From NCBI RefSeq assembly GCF_000002985.6, contig NC_003283.11, positions 7,068,001 to 7,132,000 of the forward strand: a stretch of 64,000 nucleotides of DNA, written 5' to 3'. The translations under genes and the position numbers were made by a program. The first letter of the stretch is position 1; every line of letters starts with the position of its first letter. The notes under the pieces were generated by a model. The model searched no databases. It was not told the origin of the DNA and saw only the letters and a program-made list of their open reading frames with translations. Shown one piece after another: positions 7,961 to 23,540 of this stretch. The stretch is from Caenorhabditis elegans (taxonomy: Eukaryota > Nematoda > Chromadorea > Rhabditida > Rhabditidae).

Positions 7961-10900
7961 ATGGCCGTCACTAGGTCACTTCTATTTTTATTTTTAATTG
8001 CGTCGGTAAGTTACACAATTGTTTTCCTGGTGGTAGAAATTTTTCCATACTTTTCGTTAAAAATTATTGAGAAAGCTTTGCATGTGCAAGCAATTTCACG
8101 CTAAAATTTTTCAGTAGCTTGCATGTTAGCTAATCCAAATGTAAGTTAGAACGTGACGTCTAAAAACTAGAAATTAACTTTTCGACTCTCTTCACTTTAC
8201 GTTGCTGAACTCTTGAGCTCACAAACTTCAACTTTTAAACTTTGTGCATCTAGTTTGTAGTCTATAAAAAACACGATTTTATCAGTGATAATCACACATT
8301 TATTTAGCGATTTCCACGCAACACACTAACCACAGTATGTACTATTTCAGGTCGCATTGGCCGGCAATCACAACCGTCATCACAGGTAATGCCGTTTTTT
8401 GTTTACGATATGGGCACAGCTCTGTTTTAAGATAACAGAGAGAAGCATCTGGAAACATAGAACACAACAGGGTCAAAGTATAGAAAAGTTTCAGAAACCG
8501 ACGGGATAATGATCTCCACGATTGGCTAACAGCTGAACAAAAAGAATCTTTAAAGGATATTGCACAAGGAACTGAAGAGTTCAAGAAGAAGGTTGCAGTT
8601 TTCTACAACGAGCTGCCAGCTGAAAAGAGAGCAGAGTGGGACAAATTCTATAAGACTCACTGCTTCGAGTGGACTGCCAAAGCTCAAGGAGCTGACGAAG
8701 AAACTGAGTTCCAAAAGAATCTTGCTGATAATGATGTGGAAAAAGTCAGACAAAGAATCGGAGAGCTGAAAAAGGATTTGGATGAGAAGGCAAGAAAGAA
8801 CGTTGAGATGTGGGAGGACGATTGCTACAAACTTGTGAAGCCAATGAGAAAGAGAAGAGAAATTGAAGCTGAGTTCCAAGATTTCGTTAAGTGGATGACC
8901 CCAGAACAACTTGGCGATATTAACGCTTTGAAGACTGCCGGAAAAGACAGTGAGATTCAAGATAAAGTTAAAGAGTACTTTGCAAAGCTCCCAGCTGATC
9001 AACAGAAAACTCTTACTGAAGAATTCAAAGGAAAGTGCAAGGTTTACTTCACCCCGCTCATGACCTCTGATGAACTTGAAAAGATCAAGACATTGAAGGG
9101 AGACAAGGAAGCTGCTGGAGCACTTGTGAAAGGAGTAGTTGACAGACAAGATGGCGAAGTCAAAGTGATTGCCGAGAAGATGCTCTCTGTATGTACCTTT
9201 AATAAATTTACGGTAAAATTGTATCTTTCAGGTTTGTGGAGAAGTCTACAAGGAGTCTACCCGGAAGCGCAGAGAAATTGAAGCTGCATTCCAAGACTTT
9301 GTTAAATGGATGACCCCAGAACAACTCGGGGATATCACTGCTTTGAAGGCAGCTGGAAAGGACAGTGAAGTTCAAGCTAAAGTAAAGGAATTCTTCGGAC
9401 AGCTCCCAGCTGATCAACAGAAAACACTGACCGAAGAATTCAAGGGAAAATGCAAAGTTTACTTCACTCCACTTATGACTTCTGAGGAGCTTGAGAAGAT
9501 CAAGACATTGAAAGGAGACAAGGAAGCTGCTGGAGCTCTTGTAAAAGGAGTTGTTGATAGACAGGAAGGTGAAGTTAAGGCTGTTGCTGAAAAAATGCTC
9601 ACTGTAAGTTTCATCTAGTGACATCATTGTCTTACGAACAATTTCTAATTTTCAATAGGTATGCGGAGAAGTTTACAAGGATTCTAGCCGTAGACGTAGA
9701 GAGATCGAGGCAGAGTTCCAAGATTTTGTCAAGTGGATGACCCCAGAACAGCTCGGTGATATCAACGCTTTGAAGACCGCCGGGAAAGATAGTGAGATTC
9801 AGGATAAGGTTAAGGAATACTTCGCACTTCTGCCATCTGACCAGCAAAAAACTCTGACAGAGGAGTTCAAAGGAAAGTGTAAGGTTTACTTCACTCCACT
9901 CATGACTTCTGAAGAACTCGATAAGATCAAGACAATGAAGGATGATAAGGTGGCTGCTGGAGCACTTGTTAAAGGAGTCGTTGACAGACAAGAAGGAGAA
10001 GTTAAAGCTATTGCTGAAAAGATGCTCTCTGTAAGGGAAAGTATAGTTAGTGAATCTTATCAAACTAGTTTTCAGGTTTGCGGAGAAGTTTACAAAGATT
10101 CTAAACGCAAGCGAAGAGAGATCGAAGCTGCATTTAAAGATTTTGTTCACTGGATGACACCAGAACAACTTGGAGATATTACTGCATTGAAAGCTGCTGG
10201 AAAAGACAGTGAAGTTCAAGCTAAGGTTAAGGAATTTTTCGGACAGTTGCCGGCTGATCAACAGAAAACTCTTACCGAAGAATTCAAAGGAAAGTGCAAG
10301 GTTTACTTCACACCATTGATGACTTCCGATGAGCTTGCAAAGATCGAAACTTTGAAGGGGGATAAGGAAGCTGCTGGAGCACTTGTCAAGGGAGTAGTTG
10401 ACAGACAGGAAGGAGACGTCAAGGCTATTGCTGAAAAGATGTTGACTGTAAGGAAAAAGTAATAGTTATAAAAATACTGAATTATTCAGGTATGCGGCGA
10501 GGTGTACAAGGATTCTAGCCGTAGAAGACGAGAGATCGAACCAGCATTCCAAGACTTTGTCAAGTGGATGACCCCAGAGCAGCTCGGACACATCACAGCA
10601 CTCAAAACCGCTGGAAAAGAAAGTGAAGTTCAAGATAAGGTTAAAGAGTATTTTGGACAATTGCCAGCTGACCAACAAGCTACATTGAAAGAAGAGTTCA
10701 AGGGAAAGTGCAGAGTGTTCTTCACTCCATTGATGACCTCTGAGGAACTTGACAAGGTGAAGACATTGAAGGCTAATAAAGAAGCTGCTGGAGCACTTAT
10801 GAAGACTGTGGTAGATAGACAGTCAGGAGAAGTAAAGGCTACCGCTGAGAAAATGCTTGGAGTTAGTTTTACATGTTTTTTTGCTAGCTCAATCATTTAT

Positions 10901-13454
10901 TTTCAGGTTTGTGGAGAAGTGTACAAAGAGTCGAGTCGTAAACGCAGAGAGATCGAGGCCGCATTCAAAGACTTTGTTCAATGGATGACCCCTGAACAAC
11001 TGGGAGAGATCACATCAATGAAGGCCGCAGGAAAGGAAGGACCAGAACTTCAGGCCAAAACCAAAGAGTTCTTCGAGCAACTTCCAGCTGATCAGCAAAA
11101 AACCTTGAAGGAAGAGTTCAAAGGAAAGTGCAAAGTTTACTTCACTCCATTGATGACTTCTGAAGAGCTCGAGAAGATCAAGACATTGAAGGGAGATAAG
11201 GAAGCTGCTGGAGCACTTGTGAAGGGAGTAGTTGACAGACAAATGGGAGACGTGAAATCTATTTCAGAGAAGATGCTTGCTGTAAGATAGACATAGTTTT
11301 TAATCATATCTGATAGCTTGTTTTCAGCTGTGTGGAGAAGTCTATAAAGACTCTAGCCGCAGACGTCGAGAAATCGAAGCTGTGTTCCAGGACTTCGTTA
11401 AGTGGATGACTCCAGAACAACTAGGAGATATCACTGCTTTGAAGGCAGCTGGAAAAGACACTGAGGTGCAAGAGAAGGTGAAGGAATACTTTGGAAAACT
11501 CCCAGCTGATCAACAGAAAACACTTACTGAAGAATTCAAGGGAACTTGTAAGACTTACTTCTCCCCTCTGCTCACTTCTGAAGAGTCTGAAAAGATCAAG
11601 GAACATGTTGCATCCGGAGACAAGGAGGCCTCCAAAGCACTTGTCAAGGGAGCTGTGGATAGACAAGAAGGAGAAATCAAGACAATTGCCGAGAAGATGT
11701 TTGGAGTAAGCATTAAATTTAAAACTGAATGAAAACCAAACTATCTTTCAGATTTGTGGAGAAGTCTACAAGGAGAGCAAGTCTAGACGTGACGTGGCTG
11801 CTAAAATCGAGAAGCATTTAAGTTGGCTTCAAGCCGAGGAGAAGGAAGAGATTCTGAAAATGAGCAAAGAAGGAAAGAGCAAGGATGACATCAAGAAACG
11901 TCTGTTCGAGATGGTTGAAGCCAAGGAGAAGGATGCAGGAGAGAAGGAGAAAACCGTAAAACTGTGCTACGCTTGGATGGATGATGTAGCTACAAAGGAA
12001 GAAATCGAGGGGCTTCACAAGTTGCACCATGTTGATCATGGAGCATGCAAGAAGAAGGTTCGCGAGTTCATCGGAAGACTTCCAGAGGAGAAACAGAAAG
12101 CTGTTGAAGCTTCCCTTCCATTCTGTGAAAAGCTCTGGTATGGAGATCATGCATCTCATGAGGGACACGAAGGACATGGAGATCACTCTGGACACAATCA
12201 TCATCACATAAAGAGACGTCATTTGGCTGTAATTGAAAAGTACATTGAGTGGCTTGATGAGATTCAAAAGGGAGCGATTAGGGAGTTGGAAGCATCTGGA
12301 GCAGATTTCAATGTGATCGCTGATAAAATCAAGGAATTCTTCCATCTTCTTCCAGAACAGAAACAAACTGATGTTAAGGAGAAGTTCCAGAATCAATGCA
12401 TGACTTGGGCGAAAGAAGTTTCAAAGCCAACCGAATGGGAAGAAATCAAGAAATTGCACGCTGCCGAAGACTTCAACACATTGAAGCTGAAGCTTGTAGA
12501 ACTGGAAGAGCGCCTTACAGAGAATCAGAAGCATACAATTGAGCACGTGAGAGGAGTCTGCTATAGACTTTGGGGAATCAAGAATCTTGCCAGAAGACGT
12601 CGTGTTCCAAACTCAGAAGCTTCATTCCAAGAGAAAGCGGCCAAGTATTTGGATTGGATGAACGAAGAACAATTGAACGAATTGAAGAGATTGAAAAGTG
12701 AGGGAAAGAAGTCCGAGGTGATGAAGGCCATTCTAAAGTTCTACGATGAAACAACCGGAGATGCCAAGGAGAAGGCCGAGGGCAAGTTGAAAGAAGCTTG
12801 TAAGGAGTATTCGGTTAAGGCTTTCGGAGAGGAGAAGGTGGCTCAATTCAAGGCTCAATACAAAAAATTGAAGGATGAAAATGCGGAACAGTCCGAGATT
12901 GAGAAGTTGTCCAATCAATACATTGACGAGATTGAGGATGAACAGAAGAAGGACTTTGCAAAGGCTGTAAGTTATTAATTATGGGGCCGCAGCAAGCGCG
13001 CTTCAATGCCAAAGGAAAACGCTCCGCCTCCTAACGTTAGGTCTCGGTAGGAGGCGGCGAGACTGTAAATTCAAACTTTTTCACTATTTTTTCGATTGTT
13101 TTTTGTTGTTTTACATATTTTTTATGTCGAAATGATGTTTAAAATACTTGTCGTTTCGAAATTATAATATAGTCAGAAATAACCGAAAAAATAACAAATT
13201 CCTAACGGGACCCAACGTTTAGGGGCGGAGCACTTTTCGTTTTACATTGGAGCGCGCTTTCGCTTAGATTTCAAAAAACTCTATAATATACAATTTTGGA
13301 TTTTTTTATTCAGATTGTTAAAAATTCGAGTCCTGAAATTAATTTTTTGAATATCTTTCAGGTTGTCACTGGCTGCAAGCATGTCTACGCCTCAACTCGT
13401 TCCCGCCGTGATCTGATCGCTCAGGCGGTTGCCGAATATCTTCAGAACGCTTAA
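7961..13454 (+). CDS. npa-1: Nematode polyprotein allergen/antigen (ABA-1/NPA family), 1,440 aa
   Basis: NPA polyproteins are secreted and cut into about 15-kDa helical carriers of fatty acids and retinoids. Exons: 7961-8005, 8351-8385, 8495-9188, 9232-9603, 9659-10030, 10076-10447, 10490-10861, 10907-11281, 11328-11705, 11752-12966, 13362-13454. A signal peptide (LLFLFLIAS) opens exon 1. Units are separated by basic sites: RNRR, RKRR, RRRR, KRKRR, IKRR, RRRR and SRSRR. I count 11 units plus a short tail. Most middle exons carry exactly one unit (372-378 nt) with phase-0 introns before VCGEVY. Each unit shows the conserved Trp (KWMTPEQL) and two Cys (KGKCKVYF, CGEVY). Units 3-6 are very similar, while units 1 and 9-11 are divergent. 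A His/Gly-rich stretch lies at about 12150-12210. The gene is convergent with mys-1. The identity is strong; the symbol comes from family and neighbourhood. Confidence 0.95.
12989..13264. mobile_element. MITE-like inverted-repeat element in the last npa-1 intron
   Basis: The left arm begins AAGCGCGCTTCAATG (12994) and runs through GCTCCGCCTCCTAACGTTA. The right arm is its imperfect inverse (AACGTTTAGGGGCGGAGC then CATTGGAGCGCGCTT, ending about 13259). The arms are about 45-60 bp and the centre is AT-rich. There is no open frame. The element explains why this intron (395 nt) is much longer than the 40-60 nt introns between the repeat-unit exons. Confidence 0.8.
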
Positions 13455-18031: not shown

Positions 18032-20765
18032 ATGTCACTATATTTTATACTAATTGTTACTATAATAATCCCACAATTTGAATTTATTCATTCACCTTTA
18101 TCTGAAAAGGATATTGTTACATTCCGCTTCAATTTGGTAAATCGTCTTGATCAGTGCACATTATGGAGATCAAAACTAGATAAAAAAGTTTCAAATACGT
18201 TAGATCATTTTTTAATGAACTCAAAGTTTGATGAATTTCGAGAAGCATCTACACAATTAGCTGCAGATATATACCCGGAAAGTATTGACTGCCTTGACTC
18301 TTGCTCTTATGATATTGAACAATTTAATGATTTCGTGAAATCTGAAAGTTTAACTACAAAGAATGATCTTGGAGACCTTCTTGATAACGAGCAAATTTAT
18401 CAGTTGCATATGCTTTTGGAGAAAACAAAACGGCCGGATATCGTGGAAAAAGGGGTGAGTTATTGAAGTTTCAATTTTAATTTTAACGATTAAAATTCTA
18501 TATAACAACTTATGTTGTTTTATAATATTTTTTATGGGAAATGGATGAAAAAATTTCAAAAATTGTGTAATTGAATTGTAATTAATTTACTATAAATAAA
18601 ATGTGCTAATTCCAGAAATGATCCGATGAAAAAGCTATACATTTTTTGGACAGTCTTCACAGTCTTTGACACTATTTTTTTTTAAATTATATTTTTATTA
18701 ATTTTATATCAGTTTGTTTTAGATATTCTTAAAACCAATTTGAATCAAAATGAGATGATAATTTTATTTGACATCAAAAATAGTTTTGTGCCTTTTTGTG
18801 CCAAAATGAAAAATATTAAAAAAAAACATTAATTTGTGTTTTTTATAGATTTCCTCTAAAACTGTCCATAATTAATAATCTCTAGATTCTACAACATCTA
18901 CATGGAATTCCTGAAAAACGACGCCAGGAACTTCTCTCAGAGTTTTTCGCCTCAAAGCCATCTCGTGTTCGTCGTTCAACAATGAGCAGAAAAATTGCAC
19001 GTGAGCCAACTCCATTAACTCCTGACATGCTGTCATGGCAAACTCCACGCCATAAAAATGTGCTCAATAAACAGAAACTTACAAAAGGATCTCAATGGGA
19101 TGCTATGAACACTATCGGTGATCAGTATTATCATTTGAGAAAAGCTGTACGGGTGAAATATGATGGGTAAGTTGTTCATTAAAAATCTTCCCCAATATTC
19201 GGATTTTCAGGAAATTCATGAAATATTGCAATGAAAGTTTATTGGAAATCATCGGTCGTGACAATTTTGCAACGCTTGAAGAAATGGTTCAGGATAGTGA
19301 GCAAGTTGAGCACATTTGGAACAAGTATCATCAGATAATTGGTTACTTGAAAAACGAGGAAGACCAGTTAACTGCAGAACATTACGGTCAATTCTGTCGT
19401 AAAATCTACCGTCTTCTACCAATTGAACAAGCTGATCTCATGTCTTGGTTACGACCGGCACAAAGGTTCCGTATTGCGGAAATGATTCAGGATCGGGAAG
19501 TGAATGATTCTCAAGTTTATGAAAAGGTATTCTAACAGTGTTCTCATCATCAATTCATTCTTTGCTTTCTATAGCTGTACGAGTTTTTCAATCAAGCAAG
19601 TGGCGATGCAAAAGACGATGCTGACGAGGTCATCACTCTTGGATGTCGAAAGTTTATCGCCCATCATTTGGGAGACCAAGTGGCTGAGGTGAATGATTGG
19701 AATTTGTGAGGATGAAAGAATGATTCGAACAAAAATTTTTGCAGGATATTGAAGATTTGAGAGTGGCCGGTGGAACCGGAAGTAGTCATCATACGGCAGC
19801 AATGTTGCTTGTCAAACATAATGAAATTGCAGAAGCCGGAGCATTGGCACATCAGAAACGAATTGAGTGAGTTGGGTTAAATAAATAATGAACAGTCTTC
19901 CTGCACTCTGAGTAAGTTTGGGCATCTTTAAAAAAACGGCGACAATAAATTTCACTGCTACTCAAAAATACTAGTTTCCAATAAGTTGCAACTGAATACT
20001 TATTTGACAACTTGCTCAACGTTATAGTTGTGAAACTATTGTATTGCACTGCATACTCACCTCGGAAATTTTTAAAATGGTTCTAGAAAGCTTACTATAA
20101 TAGTGAGGCGCTTTAAAATGTTCTTAAACATTATATGGCAATTCCAAAGTTCGATATAAACCAATATTACCTAAACATTCTACAAAAGTGTATGTTTTTT
20201 TCAGAGAATCAGTTTCAATTTGCAAAAGAATCTACCTTGACTATGATGGATCGTGTTTCTGTAATGGTCGATCCACTATGTGCGATGAGAAGACCCATGT
20301 TTGCCAAAACTGCACCGGTGGAACACTTGGCATCCAATGCGAAAAGTGTCCAGAAGATCTCAGATTAGACAAGACTGGCAAATGTGTTCCAGGATTGGAT
20401 CCCGACTGTTTTTGCAACAGTCACTCCTATGAATGTACCGATGGAATATGCACAGACTGTGAGAATAACACCACTGGTGATCATTGCGAACTTTGTGATA
20501 TTGGGTTCTATGGAGACCCTACAATGGGTAGAGGCTGCACAAAATGCCCATGCCCGTGAGTTTTAAATCGAATTTAAATTTGAATGAAATCGAATAAATT
20601 TCCAGCAAAAACGGAGAATGCTCCTATAACACTGTGACAAATAGAATCGAATGTAACGATTGTCCAAAAGGACATATTGGAGAAAGATGTGAAGATAGTG
20701 AATCCTCGTATCAGCCATTCACAACGGAAGCTTCAACAATAACTTTAGTTGATAATCAGTTGTAG
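18032..20765 (+). CDS. Secreted protein with NPA-like helical units and laminin-type EGF modules, 588 aa
   Basis: Exons 18032-18454, 18886-19166, 19211-19526, 19575-19688, 19745-19866, 20205-20555 and 20606-20765 join in frame. A signal peptide covers residues 1 to about 18. The N-terminal ~415 residues are helical and contain segments resembling the units of the neighbouring polyprotein: DNEQIYQLHMLL followed by LHGIPEKRRQELLSEF (compare AEQKESLKDI, YNELPAEKRAEW), and WLRPAQRFRIAEM then FFNQASGDAKDDAD (compare KFYDETTGDAKEKAE in the last polyprotein unit). A basic RVRRS site follows the first unit. The C-terminal part has two full and one partial laminin-EGF-like modules (CFCNGRSTMC, CENNTTGDHCELC, CPKGHIGERCED) and a short Thr/Ser tail with no membrane segment. 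Gene structure is firm; homology to NPA is an inference from pattern. Confidence 0.85.
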
Positions 20766-21614: not shown

Positions 21615-23540
21615 TCAGCCCTCGTTTTTCTTAAAATTTGGACCGTCCACCATTGAGTACCAATCATCTGTTCTTGTTGCAATTAACTTATAAAGTCCAC
21701 CCAGTTGCAATTCCTCTTCCAGAACATCGATTCCTCGTTGAATAGACGGCAATAACAACATGTTCTTAGAGAACCGGAAGCAATAGTCTTCAGAATTAGA
21801 ACTGCACAATTGCTTGCAAACAGCATTCAGTTCACGGAAGAGTTCTTGTCGAATTGTTTGACAAAATTCAATGCAATCATCAGATTGATAGTCGAGACCA
21901 ATATCAAATAGGCATATTGCACATAGGAGCAGAAATTCGTGAATTGAAAGTTTCGCATCAATAACTGGATCGACCAATGTTTTACGGAAATCCGCCCAGT
22001 ATGGGGAAAATATTCTGAAATGAATTTAAGTTATATAAAAGATTCAACAAAAAAATTAACTGAATTTAATAGACGTTAATTGACAACTTAGAAATCAGAG
22101 AGAATTGAGGAAAATTGCCAGTATTTCCTCCGGTTTTTACAAAGAAAGTGCAATGTAAATTCATACCTTGATACTTCATCTAGGCTATAAGAAGTTGGAG
22201 TGCATAAATGACGTGTATAATATACCCCGACTTCGTCCACAATGTCACCTGTTGGCAAGTGATATGTGTCGGGTTTTCCTGCAATTTTGATCTCAGTTAT
22301 TACATTAATCAAGGTTTTCCCAACTACCTAATAAAACGGCTAGATACGCCGGCTCAAACACTGTCCATTTCATATAAAAATTCCGGAATAGAATCCTTTG
22401 CTGATCTGGTTCCAAAACTCGAGAAAATTCGGGAAATGTGTGGTTAATCCAATCGACAACAAGCCTAACATCTTTTCTGAATATTGTCAAAGCTTCAGCA
22501 TGATGAAGAGTTTTTGTAGCTCTTCGTTTAGGAAATCTGACTTTTCGAATTTGGAGCATTTCCGTGAAGTTGAGATGTAAAGATTTGAGACGCATATTGT
22601 TGTAGTCATAAGTTGAAGAACATTGTAGCTCATTCGGAAGTATGCTCACTTTTGAATAGCAAGCTGGTACCAGCGCTTTCTCCGAAACTTCGTCTTTCTT
22701 TTTCAACTTATCATTGTCGTGCTTATCCCTTTTGCTTTGAACATCTGAAATATAAATTTCTGAGTCACAAAGTAAACTCCAAAACTTACTTGAAATCCTC
22801 ATACCAATCTGCAAGCACTTTTCCATCCGACATGCTTTACACTGCCTTACTTCACGTTCACCTGCAAAATTTGAAATAAAACATGGGGTTACTTGAAAAT
22901 CAGTTTACCAGTGATTTCACATGAGCCAAGCTGATCACAAGTAGCTGGGAAACGTGAGAAAACTCGACGACGGAAAAATGCAGCACATGCTCTGGAAGTT
23001 GTATTTAGGTTGAAAATGAGAATGTTCTTTCAATTTTTTGAGCAAAAACTAACAGTTCAATTCTTGATTTTGAGAAATAACCGCGGAATGGGGTGACTTG
23101 CAAATTAGCAGTTTTTTTAATCTCTAGACTGAAAATGACTTCGCTATTATAATATTTTATGCCACTTTTGTAGGTGGTTTTTAATATCAATTTCAAGTTT
23201 TACAATTGTTCTTGAATTATGTGTTGCTTCACTATTTTATAAAACTTTCACATTTTTAGAACACCAATGCTCTGAAGACCACAGAGCAGGTTCAACCTTC
23301 ATACATACAAATTACCGGAAATTGTATAAATATTCGATGTTTCTTGTCTTCTTACCACAAAAACAAACATGCGCAAACCCTCCGATTACATTCCCTCGTT
23401 TCTCAATCGAGATCAAAAGATGACTCTCAAACTACAGTAAAGTTTCCGCCTGCCGTGACTCACCTACACACATCTGCACCGTAATGTGGTTCAGTTGATG
23501 GCGCTTTACACACTAGACATTCAAGTTCAGTGATATCCAT
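21615..23540 (-). CDS. Nuclear hormone receptor (supplementary NR), 386 aa
   Basis: Ligand-type transcription factor, nuclear. Exons in transcript order: 23464-23540, 22909-22991, 22790-22861, 22328-22744, 22167-22278, 21615-22014. The start MDITELEC is the only ATG in frame before the first zinc-finger cysteines. The DNA-binding domain covers residues 8 to about 78: CLVC, the recognition helix region CRACAAFFRR, CDQLGSC, and the second-finger motif CKACRMEKCLQIGM. A Lys-rich hinge follows (DKHDNDKLKKKDE). The ligand-binding domain extends to the C-terminus, with LRLVVDW-type and YLPTGDIVDEVG-type motifs of the expanded nematode HNF4-derived family. It is tandem with the next receptor in the same orientation. 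The exact nhr number cannot be read from sequence. Confidence 0.93.

Follow-up and report, generated by a model that had tools for sequence, protein, structure and literature searches.

The NPAs are a family of lipid carriers known only from nematodes, where carriers of this kind occur in body fluid; they are cut from polyproteins, and the cutting of an NPA polyprotein occurs at basic tracts. The units released in this way bind fatty acids and retinol, and a Trp and two Cys residues are described as absolutely conserved across the family, the Cys residues except in a truncated unit (PMC3079579). Two statements in the literature concern the C. elegans members directly: npa-1 has no N-glycosylation sequons according to PMC10187950, and PMC12238268 mentions a His-rich stretch in connection with CELE_VC5.3, an NPA gene of this species. 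The latter paper also describes p43 (dorylipophorin) of Trichuris, a secreted nematode lipid binder that binds matrix proteoglycans as well; its structure is unlike that of the NPAs by the same description.

The window analysed is a stretch of 64,000 nucleotides of the C. elegans genome (chromosome V, contig NC_003283.11, positions 7,068,001 to 7,132,000 of the forward strand), and all coordinates below are counted from its first letter. Sequence analysis demonstrates that a gene in this window, probably VC5.2, has a predicted product in which two NPA units are joined to laminin-type EGF modules, two of them full and the third partial. The predicted protein has in common with npa-1 and Ascaris ABA-1 the family profile, the residues Trp15, Cys64 and Cys120 (ABA-1A numbering), the tandem arrangement of units and a secreted-type precursor. 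It differs from npa-1 in having two clear units rather than 11 and no RR-type tract between them, and from NPA/ABA-1 proteins in its fusion to laminin-type EGF modules. With laminin, netrin and perlecan it shares two 8-Cys modules that match both EGF_LMN_ATRN and EGF_laminin, but it has only two and a half such modules, and Pfam, which matched three families in all, found no other domain of those proteins. The resemblance to p43 is one of idea only. Both kinds of domain were already known and the gene had already been named; no description of an NPA-EGF fusion was found in the titles, abstract beginnings and passages searched, and protein databases may show it.

Gene structure and identity

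The coding region (18032..20765, plus strand) was assembled by eye from splice signals as a predicted model of seven exons: 18032-18454, 18886-19166, 19211-19526, 19575-19688, 19745-19866, 20205-20555 and 20606-20765. All seven are in frame, the introns run from GT to AG, and the joined exons encode 588 residues and a stop. The predicted joins are internally supported, because the hallmark residues of the two NPA units (A and B, see below) are spread over exons 2, 3, 4 and 6 and come into register once these are joined. The first 20 or so residues (18032..18091, plus strand) are hydrophobic and signal-peptide-like, as judged by eye from the translation, and the protein carries five N-glycosylation sequons, at 242, 333, 454, 506 and 507. 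The sequence-only reading of this locus had proposed a secreted protein with NPA-like units followed by laminin-EGF modules, and that order of parts is upheld by the Pfam matches to NPA, EGF_LMN_ATRN and EGF_laminin in the 588-residue model.

The gene is probably VC5.2, since its neighbour is npa-1, recognized by its NPA units and a His-rich stretch (compare CELE_VC5.3). The same reading had placed it next door but one to npa-1, and indeed one minus-strand MYST acetyltransferase gene lies between them (MOZ_SAS 285.9, zf-MYST 78.1 and Tudor-knot 58.7 bits). The two NPA genes are on the same strand, with 4,577 bases from the npa-1 stop to the start of the VC5.2 candidate. Directly downstream of the candidate is a minus-strand nuclear hormone receptor gene (21615-22904), in which two open stretches match Hormone_recep with 71.5 and 41.1 bits.

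Two NPA units

Applied to the 588-residue protein, Pfam matched the NPA family (PF16469, curated cut-off 27 bits) over two stretches with 94.3 bits and an E value of 1.2e-26. Unit A (19024..19412, plus strand; residues ~188-302, exons 2-3) contains W192, C241 and C297, and unit B (19431..20238, plus strand; residues ~309-430, exons 3-6) contains W314, C364 and C425. Scanned separately, each exceeds the cut-off by itself: A with 41.4 bits (E 2.7e-10, positions 10-123 of the 123 in the profile) and B with 57.6 bits (E 2.6e-15, positions 9-123). A phmmer search led to the solved ABA-1A unit 2XV9 with an E value of 7.5e-7, the best among the 29 sequences listed, so that the proposed membership in the NPA/ABA-1 family has passed the profile search.

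A chance control used a profile made from the 11 npa-1 units only, with 5000 shuffles per piece. The piece with A scored 34.2 bits and that with B 41.2 bits; no shuffle reached either score, the maxima being 10.6 and 11.8 bits, respectively. Residues 25-432 taken whole scored 73.6 bits, against a best of 15.2 in 2000 shuffles. In an alignment of nine units (A, B and 7 of the 11 from npa-1), the Trp and the two Cys were the sole invariant columns, 9 of 9, and in A and B they map to the three ABA-1A positions named above. The near-invariant Gln20 is Gln in unit B and His in unit A; this residue affects the stability of ABA-1 rather than its binding (PMC3079579). Identity to ABA-1A is 21% for A and 25% for B. 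The presence of two near-complete NPA units in the predicted protein is thus confirmed at the level of profile and hallmark residues. Of the two patterns that the sequence-only reading had cited, GDAK is present in unit B, from residue 344.

The N-terminal region and the cleavage sites

That reading had extended the NPA likeness over residues 1-415. It holds clearly only for residues ~188-430; residues 20-171 have no Pfam match. A genome search for a paralogue of residues 20-171 gave two matches, both from the VC5.2 candidate itself, and the prokaryote library NCBIfam had no match in the first 235 residues. A possible degenerate NPA half-unit, without the Trp, spans intron 1 at 18356..18948 (plus strand; residues 109-162). 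With the npa-1 profile, residues 105-171 scored 13.1 bits, which none of 4811 reported shuffles reached, and the half-unit score was reached by none of 5000 shuffles of residues 25-172 and by 1 of 4913 reported shuffles of residues 25-171. With the broader 14-unit profile, residues 105-171 scored 4.8 bits (reached by 15 of 4762 reported shuffles) and the half-unit score was reached by 219 of 4865. Because the signal weakens in this way under the broader profile, the half-unit is kept as only suggestive. The second cited pattern has its nearest counterpart within it, in PEKRRQE from residue 150, which is alike by eye and inexact. The second half of an NPA unit was also sought at residues 25-108 and rejected: the npa-1 profile gave 0.4 bits, a score reached by 1329 of 4829 reported shuffles, and the 14-unit profile 0.1 bits, reached by 1452 of 4769. 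A single-sequence structure model of exon 1 alone was helical but poor (mean pLDDT 50.7), and is uninformative on A and B.

Upstream of unit A, a pattern scan located a furin-type site, RVRR (18964..18975, plus strand; residues 168-171), which is the sole R-X-[RK]-R and the final RR in the 588-residue protein, and at which we infer cleavage. The same scan found no RR after residue 171, and hence no basic tract of the npa-1 kind that would separate unit A from unit B, or B from the EGF modules. What follows RVRR is six lone KR or RK pairs, at 176, 226, 298, 365, 416 and 426, the first of which precedes unit A, the other five lying within A or B. In npa-1, all 11 units are preceded by a basic tract that ends in RR, and nine of these tracts are of the form R-X-[RK]-R.

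The laminin-type tail

The C-terminal part of the predicted protein matched EGF_LMN_ATRN with 60.1 bits over two stretches (cut-off 27) and EGF_laminin with 28.8 bits over three (cut-off 21). Two complete modules were located by Pfam, each with 8 Cys, the first at 20254..20385 (plus strand; residues 436-479) and the second at 20407..20538 (plus strand; residues 487-530). They are followed by a truncated third EGF-like module with 6 Cys (20545..20690, plus strand; residues 533-564) that runs across intron 6; scanned by itself, exon 7 matched no Pfam family. Among the solved structures matched by phmmer are laminin, netrin-1 and perlecan. A search of the genome with the EGF part gave 12 matches at E values up to 0.01, two of them from the gene itself and the other ten at 38-54% identity. 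The best relatives elsewhere, at 41% identity with E values of 4.3e-11 and 1.8e-9, lie in loci that we take to be the laminin chain genes lam-2 and epi-1, and the perlecan gene is presumably also among the best.

The two parts of the protein meet within a single exon. C425 is the last Cys of unit B, and the Cys residues of the EGF modules begin 11 residues later, at 436; both positions are in exon 6, so that the NPA and EGF domains abut. The term fusion, as proposed from the sequence, is therefore supported, since unit B ends inside an exon that encodes EGF modules.

Relationship to npa-1

The npa-1 model used here runs from the first NPA unit to the stop (8502..13454, plus strand), with the 5' exons outside it. 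A search with PF16469 covered one nematode genome (100,286,401 bases in seven contigs); 14 of 14 candidates were scored, and the 12 matches were the 11 units of npa-1 and exon 3 of the VC5.2 candidate, which by itself reached 26.4 bits. This search reads exons singly, and units of another NPA gene that are split by introns can escape it. A shared local origin of the VC5.2 candidate and npa-1 is likely, being the simplest reading of a search that matched two neighbouring genes only.

The earlier suggestion of a local NPA duplication fits the map of two neighbouring genes, but the phylogenetic and intron data are less decisive. In a tree of 14 units, which does not place A or B, the near-identical units 2-8 of npa-1 cluster together (98/99) to the exclusion of both, so that neither A nor B has the look of a recent copy of them. 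The AU tests did not reject a pairing of A with B (p-AU 0.24), of B with unit 11 of npa-1 and ABA-1A (0.424), or of B with units 2-8 (0.215). Intron 5 of the VC5.2 candidate, beside the second Cys of unit B, is in phase 2 and lies 16 bases ahead of the codon for that Cys. In npa-1 the intron beside the second Cys is, at 7 of 7 junctions, in phase 0 and one codon before it, and the last such npa-1 intron is four codons before. Intron position is thus no proof of descent, being close to the npa-1 position but different from it.

Several features of npa-1 itself were observed in passing. Seven of its unit-end introns (9189-11751) are 42-55 bases each, and their likeness in size, phase and position points to an array that expanded as a module of exon and intron was duplicated. 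The end of unit 9, ahead of its basic tract, is rich in His (GDHASHEGHEGHGDHSGHNHHH, 12142-12207); metal binding has been proposed for His-rich stretches of this kind (PMC12238268). The last intron (12967-13361) contains an imperfect inverted repeat, with arms of 26 bases at 12994-13019 and 13234-13259 that are 85% complementary, and two shorter inverted repeats are nested inside it. The repeat could represent a small mobile element of the palindromic kind.

A lipid binder held in place?

Because no RR-type tract divides A, B and the EGF modules from one another, we propose an NPA protein that is held by its tail. After removal of the signal peptide, a furin-type protease would cut at RVRR and release an N-terminal pro-region, and A, B and the EGF modules would stay together as one mature chain. 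Units A and B would fold like ABA-1A and hold ligands of the fatty acid or retinoid type, more surely so for B than for A. The laminin-type tail would retain this chain within the matrix or at a cell surface, unlike single NPA-1 units, which can move freely, and the protein would store, buffer or present lipid locally without itself moving. As to origin, one local ancestral NPA gene was probably duplicated to give npa-1 and the VC5.2 candidate, with the EGF tail probably gained by one of the two copies. We hold this entire scheme, an uncut lipid binder with a laminin-type tether and a local-duplication origin, tentatively, at somewhat short of an even chance.

Alternatively, the two NPA units could now be purely structural helical domains in a matrix or surface glycoprotein that no longer carries lipid, which is possible but, in our estimation, doubtful. 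In its favour, the end branches of both units in the 14-unit tree are long (A 3.51 and B 2.15 changes per column), and VC5.2 has been grouped with perlecan, not with lipid carriers (PMC3774775). Neither unit has Leu at position 42 (Gly in A, Tyr in B), and ABA-1 altered at this position no longer bound its ligands (PMC3079579). However, this position may be poorly aligned, since among the four npa-1 units compared Leu is found there in unit 11 only, with Lys or Ala in the others. At the core positions of ABA-1A, which were taken from PMC3079579, unit B is hydrophobic at 10 of 10 in core I and 9 of 12 in core II; unit A, from which several core residues are gone, is hydrophobic at 6 of 10 and 9 of 12, and the 11 npa-1 units range over 7-9 of 10 and 6-11 of 12. 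By this measure unit B looks like a sound NPA unit and unit A like a more worn one. Both Cys are also kept in A and in B, and the binding of ABA-1 was ended by reduction plus alkylation (PMC3079579), which again speaks against a purely structural role.

Another uncertainty lies in what the tail would do. EGF modules of the laminin type often serve as spacers, and a run of two and a half does not have to act as an anchor, which counts against a tether. The tail could instead be a handle by which a soluble carrier is targeted or bound to a receptor, so that it delivers lipid to particular cells; the shortness of the tail would suit such a role, as would the signal-like N-terminus combined with the lack, by eye, of a transmembrane-like stretch near the C-terminus. 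Modules of this type are nevertheless typical of matrix proteins, and we regard the handle as improbable.

Far less probable still is an error in the gene model itself, by which an NPA gene would end in intron 5 (19867-20204) and a separate EGF gene would follow. This intron contains AATAAA at 19880 and 19944, and read-through of its donor meets an immediate stop after residue 419. An NPA-only product of this kind would, however, be without the invariant second Cys of unit B, which is encoded in exon 6. The frame of exon 6 is open upstream to 20128 and Met-free there, and since its first in-frame Met lies inside EGF module 1, a separate EGF gene would be without a signal peptide. VC5.2 has moreover been treated as one gene, with similarity to perlecan, in mutant work (PMC3774775) and likewise in reporter work (PMC10802606). 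The same AATAAA motifs and the stop past the donor make a short, NPA-only isoform of the fusion gene conceivable, ending at residue 419 and so without the second Cys of unit B. Finally, we give virtually no credence to a helical part that is unrelated to the NPAs: pairwise identity of A and B to other NPA units is indeed low (10-25%), but a chance resemblance is refuted by the family E value, by the failure of all 5000 shuffles for each unit, by the passing of A and B alone, and by the three hallmark residues in place in both.

Returning to the tail-held lipid binder, a more specific version can be formulated, in which a carrier that is mobile elsewhere in nematodes has been made immobile: laminin-type modules would fix a pair of uncut NPA units to the matrix, where they would locally store or present fatty acids or retinoids, for example in the remodelling male tail tip. 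A VC5.2 promoter reporter was on in the male tail tip and absent from the hermaphrodite tail tip (PMC10802606), which counts in favour of the tail-held binder. Against it count the lack of any difference in this reporter in dmd-3(-) males, described in the same paper, and the statement in PMC3774775, with data not shown there, that VC5.2 mutants had no D-type motor axon defect. We consider this version speculative and, taken as a whole, unlikely.

Significance

The VC5.2 candidate may bear on the origin of npa-1, since the two genes are neighbours and are the only NPA loci that were matched in the genome search. Because it resides in a genetic model organism, a second NPA gene of this kind would allow a tractable test of a matrix-fused NPA. 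If the reading proposed here is true, an uncut NPA gene fused to matrix-type modules would represent a different way of working for the family.
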